Origin: a virus
Direction: 5' to 3' (one strand)
Length of the DNA: 25,106 nt
IMG/VR virus record: IMGVR_UViG_3300044971_004644
Coordinates: 1 to 25,106 of that record
Positions 8,466 to 18,897 of this stretch are shown piece after piece. The notes under the pieces are model-generated. The model did no database searches. It was not told the DNA's origin and worked only from the letters and a program-made list of their open reading frames with translations. The translations under genes and the position numbers were made by a program. Position 1 is the first letter of the stretch. Each line of letters begins with the position of its first letter.

Positions 8466-8601
8466 AAAATTTTTCGGGGGCTGGACGAGTGGGGGTAATT
8501 TTGCGGAGCCAGCGGACCGACCCCCCTCCCCCCCCCTGTCGAGGCCATAACTTCCAATAACCACTCTAATGGATAGTGGGCGGTTGTTGATGTTCAATGG
8601 C
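8466..8601. promoter_or_regulatory. probable non-coding stretch with poly-G tract and iteron-like copy
   Basis: Between the putative small terminase gene and the next gene lies a minus-strand G-tract, seen on plus as CCCCCCTCCCCCCCCC around 8521-8537, plus a 15-bp element GGTAATTTTGCGGAG at 8494-8508. The element is identical to one unit of the iteron region near 9.75 kb. A packaging (pac/cos), regulatory or RNA-structure role is possible but unproven. Confidence 0.4.
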
Positions 8602-9390
8602 TTACTCATTCGATCCATTATCCTCCTCGTTTTTAGCCTTGTTATTGAGACTGAGCGGGGTGTTTGCCAAGGGCTTCTCCACCTCGCTACTGGTTCCCGA
8701 GGGGGTCTCGATCTCGAACTCGCCATCGATGTCATCGACTTTCTTCGGGATGCTGTTGATGAGTTCCTCGAACGACAACGCATTGATCTTCTGGTTGATG
8801 TTGATGGTGAGCTGGGCGCCGCCTTCGCTGTCGCGGATCTTGTCTTGAGCGGTTCCGGCTACGAAGTTGAGCTCGGCGGCTTTCATCTTGCTGACTTGGG
8901 TGGGGTCGTTGAGCTTGTCGCGGAGGGCATCGACGGCCAGGCGTCGGACATCCTTCCAGCTTGAGGCGGCGACTTGAGCTTCCTTGTCTTTGGTGTCTGG
9001 GTGGTTAGCGATGATGCGAGAGATCACCGCGGGCTTGACGCCCAGCTTGGTGTTGATGGCGGAGACCGTCATGCCCATGAGGTAGAAGTCGGCGACGATG
9101 TCGCACATCTGGCGGAACTGGGTAGACATCGCATCCCAGTTGACCGTTTCTTCGCACGCAGCGGCCTGTTCTAGGGCTTTTTCCAGCTTATTGGGCCTTG
9201 ACCCCATCTCGGACTTGATCGGGGCTTCTGCGCGTTTCTGGAGCTTCCATTCCTTGGCCTCCTCGTAATCCATCGGACAACCGGCATCGAACCACTGCGT
9301 GGCGGTCTGGACGCTGACATGGAATTCAGCGGCCAGCTTTGTGGCGATGGAGTGTTTGGTTTCTGGCTTGGCAGATCGTTTGGGTTTCAT
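8602..9390 (-). CDS. putative terminase small subunit / HTH DNA-binding protein
   Basis: The product has 262 residues from ATG 9390 (MKPKRSAKPETKHSIATKLA), overlapping the upstream stop as ATGA. Two helix-turn-helix-like regions are visible: one near residues 12-40 (FHVSVQTATQWFDAG) and one in the middle (MGMTVSAINTKLGVKPAVIS). A helical oligomerisation-like part follows (AVDALRDKLNDPTQVSKMKA), then an acidic Ser-rich tail. TerS proteins bind the packaging site through N-terminal HTHs and form rings. Length, architecture and a place upstream of terL fit this, but three genes lie between it and terL. It could instead be a transcription regulator. Confidence 0.55.
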   Translation of the reverse strand: MKPKRSAKPETKHSIATKLAAEFHVSVQTATQWFDAGCPMDYEEAKEWKLQKRAEAPIKSEMGSRPNKLEKALEQAAACEETVNWDAMSTQFRQMCDIVADFYLMGMTVSAINTKLGVKPAVISRIIANHPDTKDKEAQVAASSWKDVRRLAVDALRDKLNDPTQVSKMKAAELNFVAGTAQDKIRDSEGGAQLTININQKINALSFEELINSIPKKVDDIDGEFEIETPSGTSSEVEKPLANTPLSLNNKAKNEEDNGSNE

Positions 9391-9641
9391 AAGCGGGCCT
9401 TCCAGTTGCTGGCCTCGACGACGAGTCGCCGGGCTTCCTCGAGGGAGTGGAAGTAGACCTCCTGCTCGGTGATATCGCGGGTGTATTCGGGCGGCTCGAT
9501 GTGGTTCAGCGCCCAGCGGAGATATTCGGCGAGGTCGGAGGCCATGCGGCAGGTGTGTGAGATGCCTGGGTGGTCTTGCCATTCGCGGCCGCAGGCTTGG
9601 CAAGCGATGAGCGGGTCGGTTTCTTTTCTTGGGGTGTTCAT
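9387..9641 (-). CDS. hypothetical protein with Cys motif
   Basis: The product has 84 residues from ATG 9641 (MNTPRKETDPLIACQACGRE); another ATG at 9656 lies five codons upstream, within the inverted iteron copy. A CQACGREW pair and a later HTCR suggest one small zinc site. The rest is helical (DLAEYLRWALNHIEPPEYTR). It is the first gene after the iteron region and overlaps the putative TerS start by 4 nt. Function is unknown. Confidence 0.65.
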   Translation of the reverse strand: MNTPRKETDPLIACQACGREWQDHPGISHTCRMASDLAEYLRWALNHIEPPEYTRDITEQEVYFHSLEEARRLVVEASNWKARL

Positions 9642-9647
9642 GTGGTT

Positions 9648-9823
9648 GCTCCGCATAATCTATTTTGCGGATTTTGATGGTTGGAAATGACCCCTCCGAA
9701 AAATTACTCCTCCGCAAAACAATCCCCCCTTCTTAGGGGGATTTTGCGGAGGTAATTTTGCGGAGGTCATCCATGCTCCGCAGAATTGGAGTATTGCGGA
9801 GGTTTTGCGGAGGTTTTGCGGAG
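9648..9823. repeat. iteron array, candidate replication origin or multi-operator
   Basis: A unit close to TTTTGCGGAGGT occurs at least nine times in 176 bp. Forward TTGCGGA cores begin at 9665, 9744, 9758, 9794, 9805 and 9816; inverted cores (CTCCGCA/TCCGCAA) begin at 9649, 9711 and 9776, and a degenerate one at 9695. The last three forward copies are exactly 11 bp apart. The array abuts the stop of the replicative helicase gene. Iterons beside a replication gene are typical of phage and plasmid origins; an operator array is the alternative. Confidence 0.6.
9687..9770. repeat. 84-bp imperfect palindrome within the iteron region
   Basis: ATGACC at 9687 pairs with GGTCAT ending at 9770. The inner stem AATCCCCC (9721-9728) and GGGGGATT (9736-9743) encloses a 7-nt loop, CTTCTTA. 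Iteron units lie in both arms in opposite orientation. The GC-rich inner stem followed by TTT could also act as a terminator. The visible symmetry is clear; the role is inferred. Confidence 0.6.
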
Positions 9824-9838
9824 TCAGGAAAAACATAG

Positions 9839-11347
9839 TCAGGCGGCGGCTTTCTGTGGTTGAGTGTTCTTGTCTAGGACCCGCTTGATGGTGTCGTGAG
9901 AGACCTTGTATTTGCTCATGGCGGCAGAATAAAAACCTCGGGTGTTGTCTGGCCAATTGGCGTGCATGGTCACGATCTCGAGTTCTTGCACAGCGTTGAG
10001 GGCGGACGGCCTGCCGGACTTGCCCTGCGACTTGCCCTCTTCTTGGGTCTCCTCGGGGAGTTCTGCCGGTTCCCAGTGCAATCCCTTGTCGGCATGCTTG
10101 ATCACGATGTCTGTGGTCGGGTGGCCGTGGTTATCGACTACGGCGGCACGATTGCCCCGCTTCGCTAGGAGAACCTTGAAGATTCCTTCGTGTTTAGTGG
10201 TTTGCAACACGCAGATCGCCCGAGCCCAGTTCGTTAGCTCACTCGATCCCAGCCCGATGTAAGCATAATCATTCGCATTCCAATGCGCCCGGCTCTTCGA
10301 GTCGCTCTGCGGCTTCCCCGTGTGGTGACTCCACACCCACGCAAACCCATGCTCGAAGGCCAGCGGGTTGCACAGCTCCCGCAAAAAGTGACTCGCCACC
10401 GCCTGCTGGGAAATATCGTCGCCGATGAAAGACAGCAACGGATCCCCGTAGACCAGATCAAACGGCCCGTGCTTCGCAATCAGCTCCCGGATCACCTCGA
10501 TGAACGCCTCACCCGTCTGAGCCGTCACCCGCGCCACGATCACATTCTCCCGCAGGATATCCACCGCCTCGCGCTGCGTCATCTTCGACTGCGCCACCAC
10601 ATACGACATCACGCCCTGGACAACCTCAGCCATGTCCCCCATATCGTTCTCCGCCTGCACGATCAGGCACTTGAGCCGCCGCTTCGGCTTCATCCCAAAA
10701 AACGGCATCCCCAGCGCCCAAGTCATCGCCTGCTGGAGAGTGTAGGAGGATTTGCCAATCCCGCTCTGCCCCAGCAGCAGCAGCTGCCCGCCACGGCACA
10801 GCCAGCGGTTCCCCACCAGCGTGCTCGAATCATCCTCCGCCTTGTAACTCCACAGCTCCTCAAAAGTATGCATCTCCACGCCCACCATCGACGCCCGAGG
10901 CTTCGCCAGCGTCTTGAGCTCCTCCAGCGCCTCCGCCACAGGCATATCCCCCGAGGCCAACCTCTGACCGATCTTAGTCGCCTTGCGCTGCGCCGCCGCC
11001 GAGGCGATGTCAGCCAGGTATTCCGACACGATGGCGCCACCCGCCGGGTTGTAAGCCAGCGAGCTGTCCGCCATGACCAAGCCATCCCGCCAGCACACCA
11101 TCCCCGACTCCTGCGCCGTCCGCTCCGCCACCTTCAGCAAAAACGGATCCCGCTCGATCGCCTCGAGGATCGTCGTGCCCGTCGTGGCCTTCTTGGCATA
11201 GTGCAGCCGGTGCGCAGCCGCGTAATAGACACCATTGAGCACCGAGACAAAACTATCGGGATCTACAATCGCCGACCTCGGCACGCCGGCGAATCCAGCG
11301 ACACTAATATAGCCGACGACGGCGCTCTCTTTCTCAGGGTATTGCAT
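9839..11347 (-). CDS. replicative helicase-like ATPase (DnaB/RepA, AAA_25 type)
   Basis: The product has 502 residues. The N-terminus (YPEKESAVVGYISVAGFAGV and following helices) resembles the DnaB N-terminal domain. A RecA-fold core has Walker A GQSGIGKS at residues 193-200, and LVYGDPLLSF as Walker B. SHHTGKPQSD and a Gly/Ser-rich LGSSELTN segment are like RepA/KaiC-type hexameric helicases. A C-terminal HTH-like stretch (YKVSHDTIKRVLDKN) could bind DNA, perhaps the adjacent iterons. It would unwind phage DNA for replication. It is downstream of the SSB-like and RuvC-like genes. GC skew flips inside the gene near 10.2 kb. Confidence 0.8.
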   Translation of the reverse strand: MQYPEKESAVVGYISVAGFAGVPRSAIVDPDSFVSVLNGVYYAAAHRLHYAKKATTGTTILEAIERDPFLLKVAERTAQESGMVCWRDGLVMADSSLAYNPAGGAIVSEYLADIASAAAQRKATKIGQRLASGDMPVAEALEELKTLAKPRASMVGVEMHTFEELWSYKAEDDSSTLVGNRWLCRGGQLLLLGQSGIGKSSYTLQQAMTWALGMPFFGMKPKRRLKCLIVQAENDMGDMAEVVQGVMSYVVAQSKMTQREAVDILRENVIVARVTAQTGEAFIEVIRELIAKHGPFDLVYGDPLLSFIGDDISQQAVASHFLRELCNPLAFEHGFAWVWSHHTGKPQSDSKSRAHWNANDYAYIGLGSSELTNWARAICVLQTTKHEGIFKVLLAKRGNRAAVVDNHGHPTTDIVIKHADKGLHWEPAELPEETQEEGKSQGKSGRPSALNAVQELEIVTMHANWPDNTRGFYSAAMSKYKVSHDTIKRVLDKNTQPQKAAA

Positions 11348-17681: not shown

Positions 17682-17700
17682 GTGACACTCCGGTGACACT
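17682..17700. repeat. left arm-type repeat pair (GTGACACT)
   Basis: Two copies of GTGACACT at 17682-17689 and 17693-17700, 11 bp apart, lie directly beside the tRNA-derived core. They are the reverse complement of the right-side repeats and are likely integrase arm sites. Confidence 0.6.
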
Positions 17701-17702
17701 TT

Positions 17703-17743
17703 GAACTTCAAAAGCGTGGGTTCGAATCCCACCCTCTCCGCCA
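17703..17743 (+). other. attP core: 3' end of a tRNA-Ser gene
   Basis: The T-arm GTGGG-TTCGAAT-CCCAC (17716-17732), acceptor strand CCTCTCC (17733-17739), discriminator G and CCA (17741-17743) are a tRNA-Ser-like 3' end. No matching 5' GGAGAGG strand lies within 100 bp upstream, so it is a fragment, not a gene. It restores a tRNA on integration, the usual design of tRNA-targeting phages. The upstream TTTGAACTTCAAA inverted repeat may be the variable arm. Confidence 0.85.
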
Positions 17744-17847
17744 ATTTGGAAGGTTTAAGAAAGGGATGGAAAAAGGCTGGGGAGCTAGGCTGGGAGAGGG
17801 TTTGCGGGCGTTTGATGATTTTGGAAAAAAATCTATGAATTTGCAAA

Positions 17848-17875
17848 AGTGTCACCGCGTGTCACAAAGTGTCAC
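17848..17875. repeat. right arm-type repeat triplet (GTGTCAC)
   Basis: Copies of GTGTCAC begin at 17849, 17859 and 17869, exactly 10 bp apart. A 12-mer, AAAGTGTCACCG (17846-17857), is the reverse complement of CGGTGACACTTT (17691-17702) on the other side of the core. The third copy covers the possible GTG start of int, so Int binding could repress its own expression. Confidence 0.65.
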
Positions 17876-17877
17876 TG

Positions 17878-18897
17878 ATGAATATCGCCACACTCCTTCC
17901 GAAGTTTGATCGTCGTCGCGGCCGCTGGGTTATCGATGTTCCGAAAAGTTTGAACGATGGCACGCGGCGGCGGATGTTTTTTTCGGACGAGAGCGAGGCG
18001 AATTTGGAGCATGCGAAGTTGGTTTTTTCGCTGACTCACACGGGCAAGATTCCGACGAAGGCGGAGTCGGGGGAGTCGGTGGCGCACTACATCGCGCAGT
18101 TCCTCGCGAAGAAGTCGGTGGAGGTGGAGCCGGTGACGCTGCGCCAGCTCAAGTGGGCCTTGAATATGCTGTCGGAAAAATATGGCGCAGTCCGCCCGCA
18201 GGATTTGGAGGCGGTGGCGGTGCGGCGTTGGGTGGACCGGCTGCCGCTCAAGACGCGGGGCCGCTTCAATGTCTTTGCCGTGTGCCGGGATTTTTTCAAC
18301 TCGCCGACCATGCGGCCCATCGTGCGGGACAATCCGTTCTGTGACGCGCCGCCGAAAAAGGACAAGGGGACGCGGCTCCAGATTTTGACTCCAGCGCAGA
18401 TGCGGAAGCTGATGGCGGCGGAGTGGCCGGCGTGGTTCCGCGCTTGGCTGGTGGCGGGAGGATTTGCGGGGATGCGGACGCGGGAGGTTTTTGCGGTGAG
18501 CTTTTCGGCGATGGATTGGGAATACGAGGAGATCACCATCCGCACCGAGGATTCGAAGCAGGGCGAGGCGGCGCGGCCTCGGAACATCACGATCCAGCCG
18601 GCCTTCAAGCGCCACATGCCGCCGGGGGAGGGCCTGCTAGTCGAGGGGTGGAGCAAAAAGAAATGGGATCCGCTGGTGAAGGAGGCGTGCCGCTTGATTG
18701 GCGTCGAGCCCGTGGAGGGCAAACTGAAATGGCCGAATAATTGCCTGCGGCATTCGTTCGCCAGCTACCACCTGGCGCACTTCCGCGATGCGGCGAAGAC
18801 GGCCTTTGAGATGGGCCACGAATCGCCCAAACTGCTTTACCAGACCTACGGAAACTGCGTGACTCGCCGCGAGGCGGAGCAGTGGTGGGCGGTGTGA
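17878..18897 (+). CDS. int: tyrosine integrase
   Basis: The product has 339 residues from ATG 17878; an alternative GTG at 17869 lies in an arm repeat and adds three residues. Tyrosine-recombinase features are visible: box I GFAGMRTREV with the first catalytic Arg, a beta-hairpin Lys in TEDSKQG, box II CLRHSFASYH with the second Arg, GHES with His, and nucleophile Tyr in LLYQTYGNCV. The usual first His of HxLRH is Asn here (NNCLRH). It is 130 bp from the tRNA-derived core, so it is probably its recombinase. The N-terminal RRGRWVIDVP style recalls verrucomicrobial integrases; this host hint is weak. Confidence 0.9.
   Translation: MNIATLLPKFDRRRGRWVIDVPKSLNDGTRRRMFFSDESEANLEHAKLVFSLTHTGKIPTKAESGESVAHYIAQFLAKKSVEVEPVTLRQLKWALNMLSEKYGAVRPQDLEAVAVRRWVDRLPLKTRGRFNVFAVCRDFFNSPTMRPIVRDNPFCDAPPKKDKGTRLQILTPAQMRKLMAAEWPAWFRAWLVAGGFAGMRTREVFAVSFSAMDWEYEEITIRTEDSKQGEAARPRNITIQPAFKRHMPPGEGLLVEGWSKKKWDPLVKEACRLIGVEPVEGKLKWPNNCLRHSFASYHLAHFRDAAKTAFEMGHESPKLLYQTYGNCVTRREAEQWWAV

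Follow-up and report, generated by a model that had tools for sequence, protein, structure and literature searches.

To reach an origin, a DnaB helicase normally depends on an initiator and in most cases on a loader as well. In phage lambda the initiator O, which is not a helicase, acts on four 18-bp iterons that lie inside gene O together with an AT-rich stretch, and it is P that loads the host DnaB. The Rep protein of SaPI has a C-terminal domain that binds iterons directly downstream of its own gene (PMC7581432), and PICI origins have the same layout with an AT-rich middle (PMC6092414). In PLE, satellites of Vibrio, the RepA_N domain and the origin are swapped together, as shown by chimeras (PMC8263062). 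RepA of IncQ (RSF1010), a RecA-like helicase that forms hexamers, is related to AAA_25, a group of proteins without a known function as described in 2022 (PMC8965321). SV40 large T antigen and papilloma E1 have an origin-binding domain fused to a ring helicase, use head-to-head sites and have no loader (PMC3401641).

The sequence analyzed in this study (the window) is a virus contig from IMG/VR, 25,106 bases long. Related records reach 41–42 kb, and the identical 127-base ends found in four of the seven that were examined indicate circular maps. Directly behind its gene for a DnaB-type helicase, the window contains an array of short repeats, and this system is present in phages, prophages, and elements of Verrucomicrobiota. 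It resembles the SaPI/PICI Rep-ori systems (and SCCmec Cch2) in that the iterons lie immediately 3' of the gene of the proposed initiator-helicase and flank a central segment, the repeated word differs between elements, and the C-terminal domain of the helicase appears to determine the word, although this last point is comparative and binding is inferred. It differs in its motor, which is AAA_25 with a DnaB/RecA fold in place of the DUF927 or Primase_Cterm of the SCC and SaPI helicases, and in its middle, where a GC hairpin replaces the AT-rich region between the iteron sets; no strongly AT-rich melting region was found at the array, the maximum being 67% AT over 30 bp. As in the PLE RepA_N-ori pair, the DNA-binding domain and the proposed origin co-vary and appear to swap as a module, but the PLE initiator is unrelated and the reading domain is here on the replicative helicase itself. 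The system works like SaPI/PICI and PLE but, because of its DnaB/RecA-type motor and GC hairpin middle, is not a member of either. It shares with lambda a phage initiator on a putative iteron origin but is intergenic, whereas the lambda iterons are within a gene. It is unlike IncQ, where a separate RepC melts oriV, and the SV40 T antigen and E1 have an N-terminal origin-binding domain on a different helicase, a resemblance of logic only.

The array and the adjoining helicase

The features of the locus, in window coordinates, are the following.

9648..9824, no strand: whole iteron array of ten sites, the proposed replication origin
9792..9824, plus strand: three direct, helicase-proximal iterons with 11-bp spacing (starts 9792, 9803, and 9814)
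9775..9785, minus strand: inverted iteron TTCTGCGGAGC
9682..9773, no strand: bulged palindrome with two iterons per arm (9742-9752 and 9756-9766 on plus; 9693-9703 and 9709-9719 on minus), fold z -8.1
9724..9741, no strand: GC hairpin core TCCCCCTAAGAAGGGGGG (minus strand), found at one place per phage genome
9693..9703, minus strand: variant iteron TTTTTCGGAGG, with a G-to-T change kept in word types A and B
9648..9673, no strand: distal pair of sites, 9648-9658 on minus and 9663-9673 on plus; its AT content, up to 67%, is the highest in the array
9839..11347, minus strand: DnaB-type replicative helicase (AAA_25 motor) with C-terminal helix-turn-helix (HTH), the proposed initiator-helicase (Pfam AAA_25, 9e-16; predicted fold matches DnaB)
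10307..10840, minus strand: RecA-like (AAA_25) motor domain, residues 170-347
9866..9994, minus strand: C-terminal HTH, residues 452-494, the proposed origin-binding domain (predicted helices; fixed differences between word types)
9866-9898, minus strand: predicted recognition helix, residues 484-494
9387..9641, minus strand: small CxxC-containing ORF adjoining the far side of the array, used as linkage control; does not track the word
8602..9393, minus strand: small-terminase-like protein (TerS), an assignment that rests only on its position and on HTH hints; it does not track the word

The 182-bp gap 3' of the helicase gene holds ten TTTTGCGGAGG sites with no more than two mismatches, in both orientations, where an earlier sequence-only reading had counted at least nine units. 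The three units that this reading had placed 11 bp apart are the direct iterons, which follow one another in exact 11-bp steps. Outside the gap such sites are single and scattered; the nearest TTTTGCGGAGG that is exact but for one base, at 8499-8509, is also kept in relatives without the type A word and is therefore ascribed to coding. The 7-mer CTCCGCA has eight copies within one 260-bp interval, the runner-up across the 25-kb record being GTGACAC, near attP, with five, and the count for 8-mers is six in the gap versus three or fewer in every other 191-bp segment. The array begins 14 bp past the helicase stop (9839) and meets the start of the small ORF at its other end; beyond this lie the small-terminase-like gene and the large terminase, so that the earlier placement of the array directly after the helicase and before the packaging genes is accurate. 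The same reading had described an 84-bp imperfect palindrome with a GC-rich core. The core is present at 9724-9741, and the palindrome is real when it is folded as DNA (9682-9773; -32.2 kcal/mol compared with -11.7 ± 2.5 for shuffles, z -8.1, none of 200 shuffles as good), but it does not stand out in an ungapped test (19 of 42 pairs, not significant) and requires bulges of 2 nt.

A probable attP lies at 17683-17880, where a tRNA 3'-end-like stretch, GTGGGTTCGAATCCCACCCTCTCCGCCA (about 17716-17743), immediately precedes the integrase gene. The five GTGACAC repeats are around this site and look like integrase arm sites.

The only Pfam match of the helicase was AAA_25 (9e-16), no significant match was obtained in a search of the PDB by sequence, and no relative was found by tblastn of phage and plasmid records. 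The structure model used here was built from a 40-row alignment, an earlier model from 13 rows having been too poor, and has a mean pLDDT of 73, with the motor mostly near 90. When this model was compared with the PDB by Foldseek, DnaB was the best match (E 3e-12, TM 0.34–0.46), and nearly all of the top matches were DnaB. The helicase is thus predicted to have the DnaB fold with a RecA-like motor; hexameric 5'-3' unwinding is putative. The HTH-like stretch noticed earlier at the C terminus is borne out by three predicted helices (residues 452-464, 472-480, and 484-494) with pLDDT of about 80–88.

Repeat words and helicase tails in related loci

Relatives of the helicase are encoded at 70 viral loci. 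The comparison of the repeated unit in related phages that had been suggested for the window found an array at matching offsets behind the helicase in all 50 related viral loci that have an HTH tail and enough sequence past the stop. The repeat words of these 50 loci fall into five types.

Type A (window): CTCCGCA
Type B: TGCCGCA, TACCGCA, or GACCGCA
Type C: GTCCAGA or GTCCAAC
Type D: CCGAAAAA
Type E: GGAAAAA
Proposed cognate sites: CTCCGCAAAA for the window phage (type A) and TGCCGCAAAA for type B, of which L012 is an example

The word is different again, around GGGAAAAAAT, in L081-L086, a group that was added later. The type A and type B arrays can be aligned from end to end and differ in two bases, the same two in each site. 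All sites change together with the word, including the direct copies outside the hairpin stem. In three loci (L039, L041, and L042), the type B array has an additional segment on its upstream side that contains a few further TGCCGCA words and a single CTCCGCA-like site, an arrangement suggestive of two joined arrays. In L051, L053, and L054 (types D and E) the N terminus of the helicase is, by eye, primase-like (SPFRDEKSPSWGIY...) and not DnaB-N-like as in types A–C, which suggests that the motor and tail have been combined with different front domains.

The protein that the word follows was examined in 39 loci with all genes present and three word types. On the tree of the HTH tail the word needs two changes, which is the minimum, compared with 9 on that of the helicase core, 11 on that of TerS, and 13 on that of the small ORF on the far side; shuffled word labels gave means of 14–16. 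This small ORF is about as near the array as is the helicase tail, yet despite its proximity it does not follow the word. The tail adjoins the array, and joint inheritance explains part of the coupling, but this share is limited because the far-side ORF is uncoupled. A careful tree of the helicase core has nine A/B changes, at least three of which are forced by well-supported branches, and in it L032 (type B) and L038 (type A, partial sequence) have identical cores. An independent-pairs test restricted to well-supported branches yielded three pairs, all agreeing but too few for significance. Individual loci have the same character. (i) L012 has word B, yet its TerS and small ORF are 99% and 96% identical to those of the window. 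(ii) L018 has the word of the window with a TerS that is 74% identical. (iii) The helicase of L033 is 97% identical to that of an A-type phage as far as residue about 378, and its tail matches that of a C-type phage at 82% identity; behind it come a C-type array and an A/B-like ORF. These features mark L033 as a natural recombinant whose tail and array changed jointly.

The A and B tails are separated by eleven fixed differences, and fixed differences between word types are located at residues 456, 460, 461, 469, 484, 488, 492, 494, and 495. Those between A and B in the predicted recognition helix are 484 (H/G or R), 488 (K or E), and 492 (D/N or R), and these three residues are candidates for the specificity determinants, which is not proof. 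The earlier suggestion that the helicase HTH could read the repeats is strengthened, as the word tracks the HTH and not the flanking genes. Although there are no binding data, these comparisons support the view that the helicase tail and the repeat word form one recognition unit, and we infer that the HTH-plus-array module has been exchanged between phages with a change in origin specificity.

Scans found helicase relatives in 24 of about 390 Verrucomicrobiota genomes and in 36 of about 380 genomes of one class, the two sets overlapping. Because the helicase family occurs in these genomes, Verrucomicrobiota is the likely host phylum of the window phage, although the host has not been shown. 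Judged by reading their sequences, many of these relatives end in HTH or winged-helix-like tails of other kinds, and behind them lie arrays built from different words (GCTGCAA, CCGAACA, TGGCAAA, CGAAAAA, TTGCCAA, ATGAACA, GTGCAAA, AGGGATA, and others). A central hairpin such as CCCCCTAAAGGGGG, scored by a simple pattern, is present in 20 of 49 distant loci; the array score is above every other 300-bp segment of the locus in 20 of the 49 and has p ≤ 0.01 against shuffles in 19. For about 60% of these 49 loci the exact-word score fails to exceed that of controls, but exact 7-mer scoring misses degenerate arrays, and the count for distant loci is a lower bound. In a wider test that took in the 20-kb surroundings, 14 of 28 arrays beat all other windows of the locus. 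No array was seen directly 3' of the helicase in some distant loci (L177, L181, L198, L200, L201, and L227). The downstream genes differ widely among the other array-bearing elements: L223 is a prophage with a different terminase, of the GpA type, and L212 and L222 have an integrase and no recognized terminase. A search for the large terminase in the four genomes with related helicases gave no match. The occurrence of arrays behind related helicases and beside a different terminase, or none that is recognized, indicates that the array belongs with the helicase and not with packaging.

Two further groups depart from this arrangement. In several Verrucomicrobiota elements (L232-L244), which have similar helicase tails, the words are of the GAGAC/ACTTTCAC type and surround hairpins, CATATTTCTATATG for example, that stand in for the C/G-run hairpin. 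In the distant relatives L059-L069 the helicase lacks the tail. A small ORF of its own comes next, and in most of these loci five AGGATGA copies lie beyond it, about 200–500 bp past the helicase. Where present, this array is the best of its locus, with none of 160–560 other windows as good. The reading domain looks as if it had been detached, the small ORF being winged-helix on a reading of its sequence only, and these loci look more like the IncQ arrangement.

The proposed origin and its rivals

What is observed is a cluster of short repeats at a fixed place and its co-change with the HTH of the cognate helicase. Given the DnaB fold of that helicase, the best reading is an origin recognized directly by a fused helicase-initiator, and we consider it probable that the array is the phage replication origin and that its word is read by the C-terminal HTH of the adjacent DnaB-type helicase, initiator and helicase being one protein; both binding and origin activity are inferred, the evidence throughout being comparative and drawn from sequence. 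The sequence-only reading had likened the region to a replication origin, and that likeness gains support from the co-change of word and HTH, from the arrays behind related helicases in unrelated contexts, and from the DnaB fold.

An operator as the main role of the array, through which the helicase HTH would regulate transcription of the late operon downstream or of its own gene, is unlikely, although the array does separate the early genes, for replication, from the late ones, for packaging, and the same co-change of word and HTH would be expected. No sigma-70-like promoter was found around the array, about ten mirror-image sites exceed the needs of an operator, a replicative helicase would be an unusual repressor, and the downstream genes vary widely in other array-bearing elements. 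An operator role alongside that of an origin is not excluded, since the two can coexist. The position upstream of the genes for the small-terminase-like protein and the large terminase, which is the usual place for pac and cos, would suit repeats recognized by the small terminase subunit, but the word needs 11 changes on the TerS tree versus 2 on that of the HTH, and TerS proteins 99% identical occur with different words (L012) and 74% identical with the same word (L018). A packaging site is therefore extremely improbable and was rejected for want of co-change with the terminase and because arrays behind related helicases stand beside a different terminase type or none that is recognized.

That the GC hairpin serves only to end the early transcript, or is part of a structured RNA, is very unlikely. 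The strong fold and a terminator-like call at 9741-9724 with the tail ATTGTTTT are consistent with it; the three terminator-like calls versus 1.7 expected are, however, near chance, and there was no Rfam match, and on these grounds a structured RNA was rejected. The sites outside the stem also change with the word, so that base pairing alone is an insufficient explanation. Termination may nevertheless be a second function of the GC core. There remains the reading of the array as a replication terminus where forks meet, with the origin near attP, to which we give hardly any credence. At four-fold sites of the coding strand in types A–C, the early genes are G-rich and the late genes C-rich in the same gene orientation. 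The cumulative GC skew has its maximum near the array, conventionally read as a terminus, and a second switch near the integrase. The flip is, however, missing in two array-bearing genomes (G009 and G011), and first codon positions show none, so that codon preference in the late genes may suffice for the skew. For these reasons GC skew is treated as uninformative for either origin or terminus.

If the array is the origin read by the helicase tail, several helicase subunits would bind to the iterons, direct and inverted, that flank the GC hairpin, and local opening would let one or two rings load, after which replication would start at the array. Loading would probably be head to head because of the mirror-image layout of the palindrome, which suggests a pair of opposed rings at the array, by analogy with what is described for SV40 T antigen. 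The GC hairpin might act in loading, in priming, or in ending an early transcript. A wider proposal, which we hold only tentatively, is that of a widespread replicon class found mainly in Verrucomicrobiota, in their phages and integrative elements. Its DnaB-family helicase would require no separate initiator and no loader; an interchangeable tail would read a lineage-specific word repeated on the flanks of a conserved GC hairpin, where two rings would be loaded head to head, and at least 15 words would have evolved with repeated tail-word swaps. No paper describing such an arrangement of a tail-reading DnaB-type helicase and array was found in the open-access literature, subscription papers and preprints being outside the scope of the search.

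In this family a reading domain would be fused to the ring itself, in many natural versions that share the motor and differ in tail and word, and the system would be useful in studies of how DnaB rings can be loaded when helpers are absent. The matched tail-word pairs form a set for the study of HTH-DNA specificity, with residues 484, 488, and 492 set against two bases of the word in the window phage. The system also raises the question of why phages keep changing origin specificity, for which competition among co-infecting phages, satellites, or origin-directed nucleases may be considered, as proposed for PLE. Origins could, in addition, be annotated in the phages of a poorly studied phylum.
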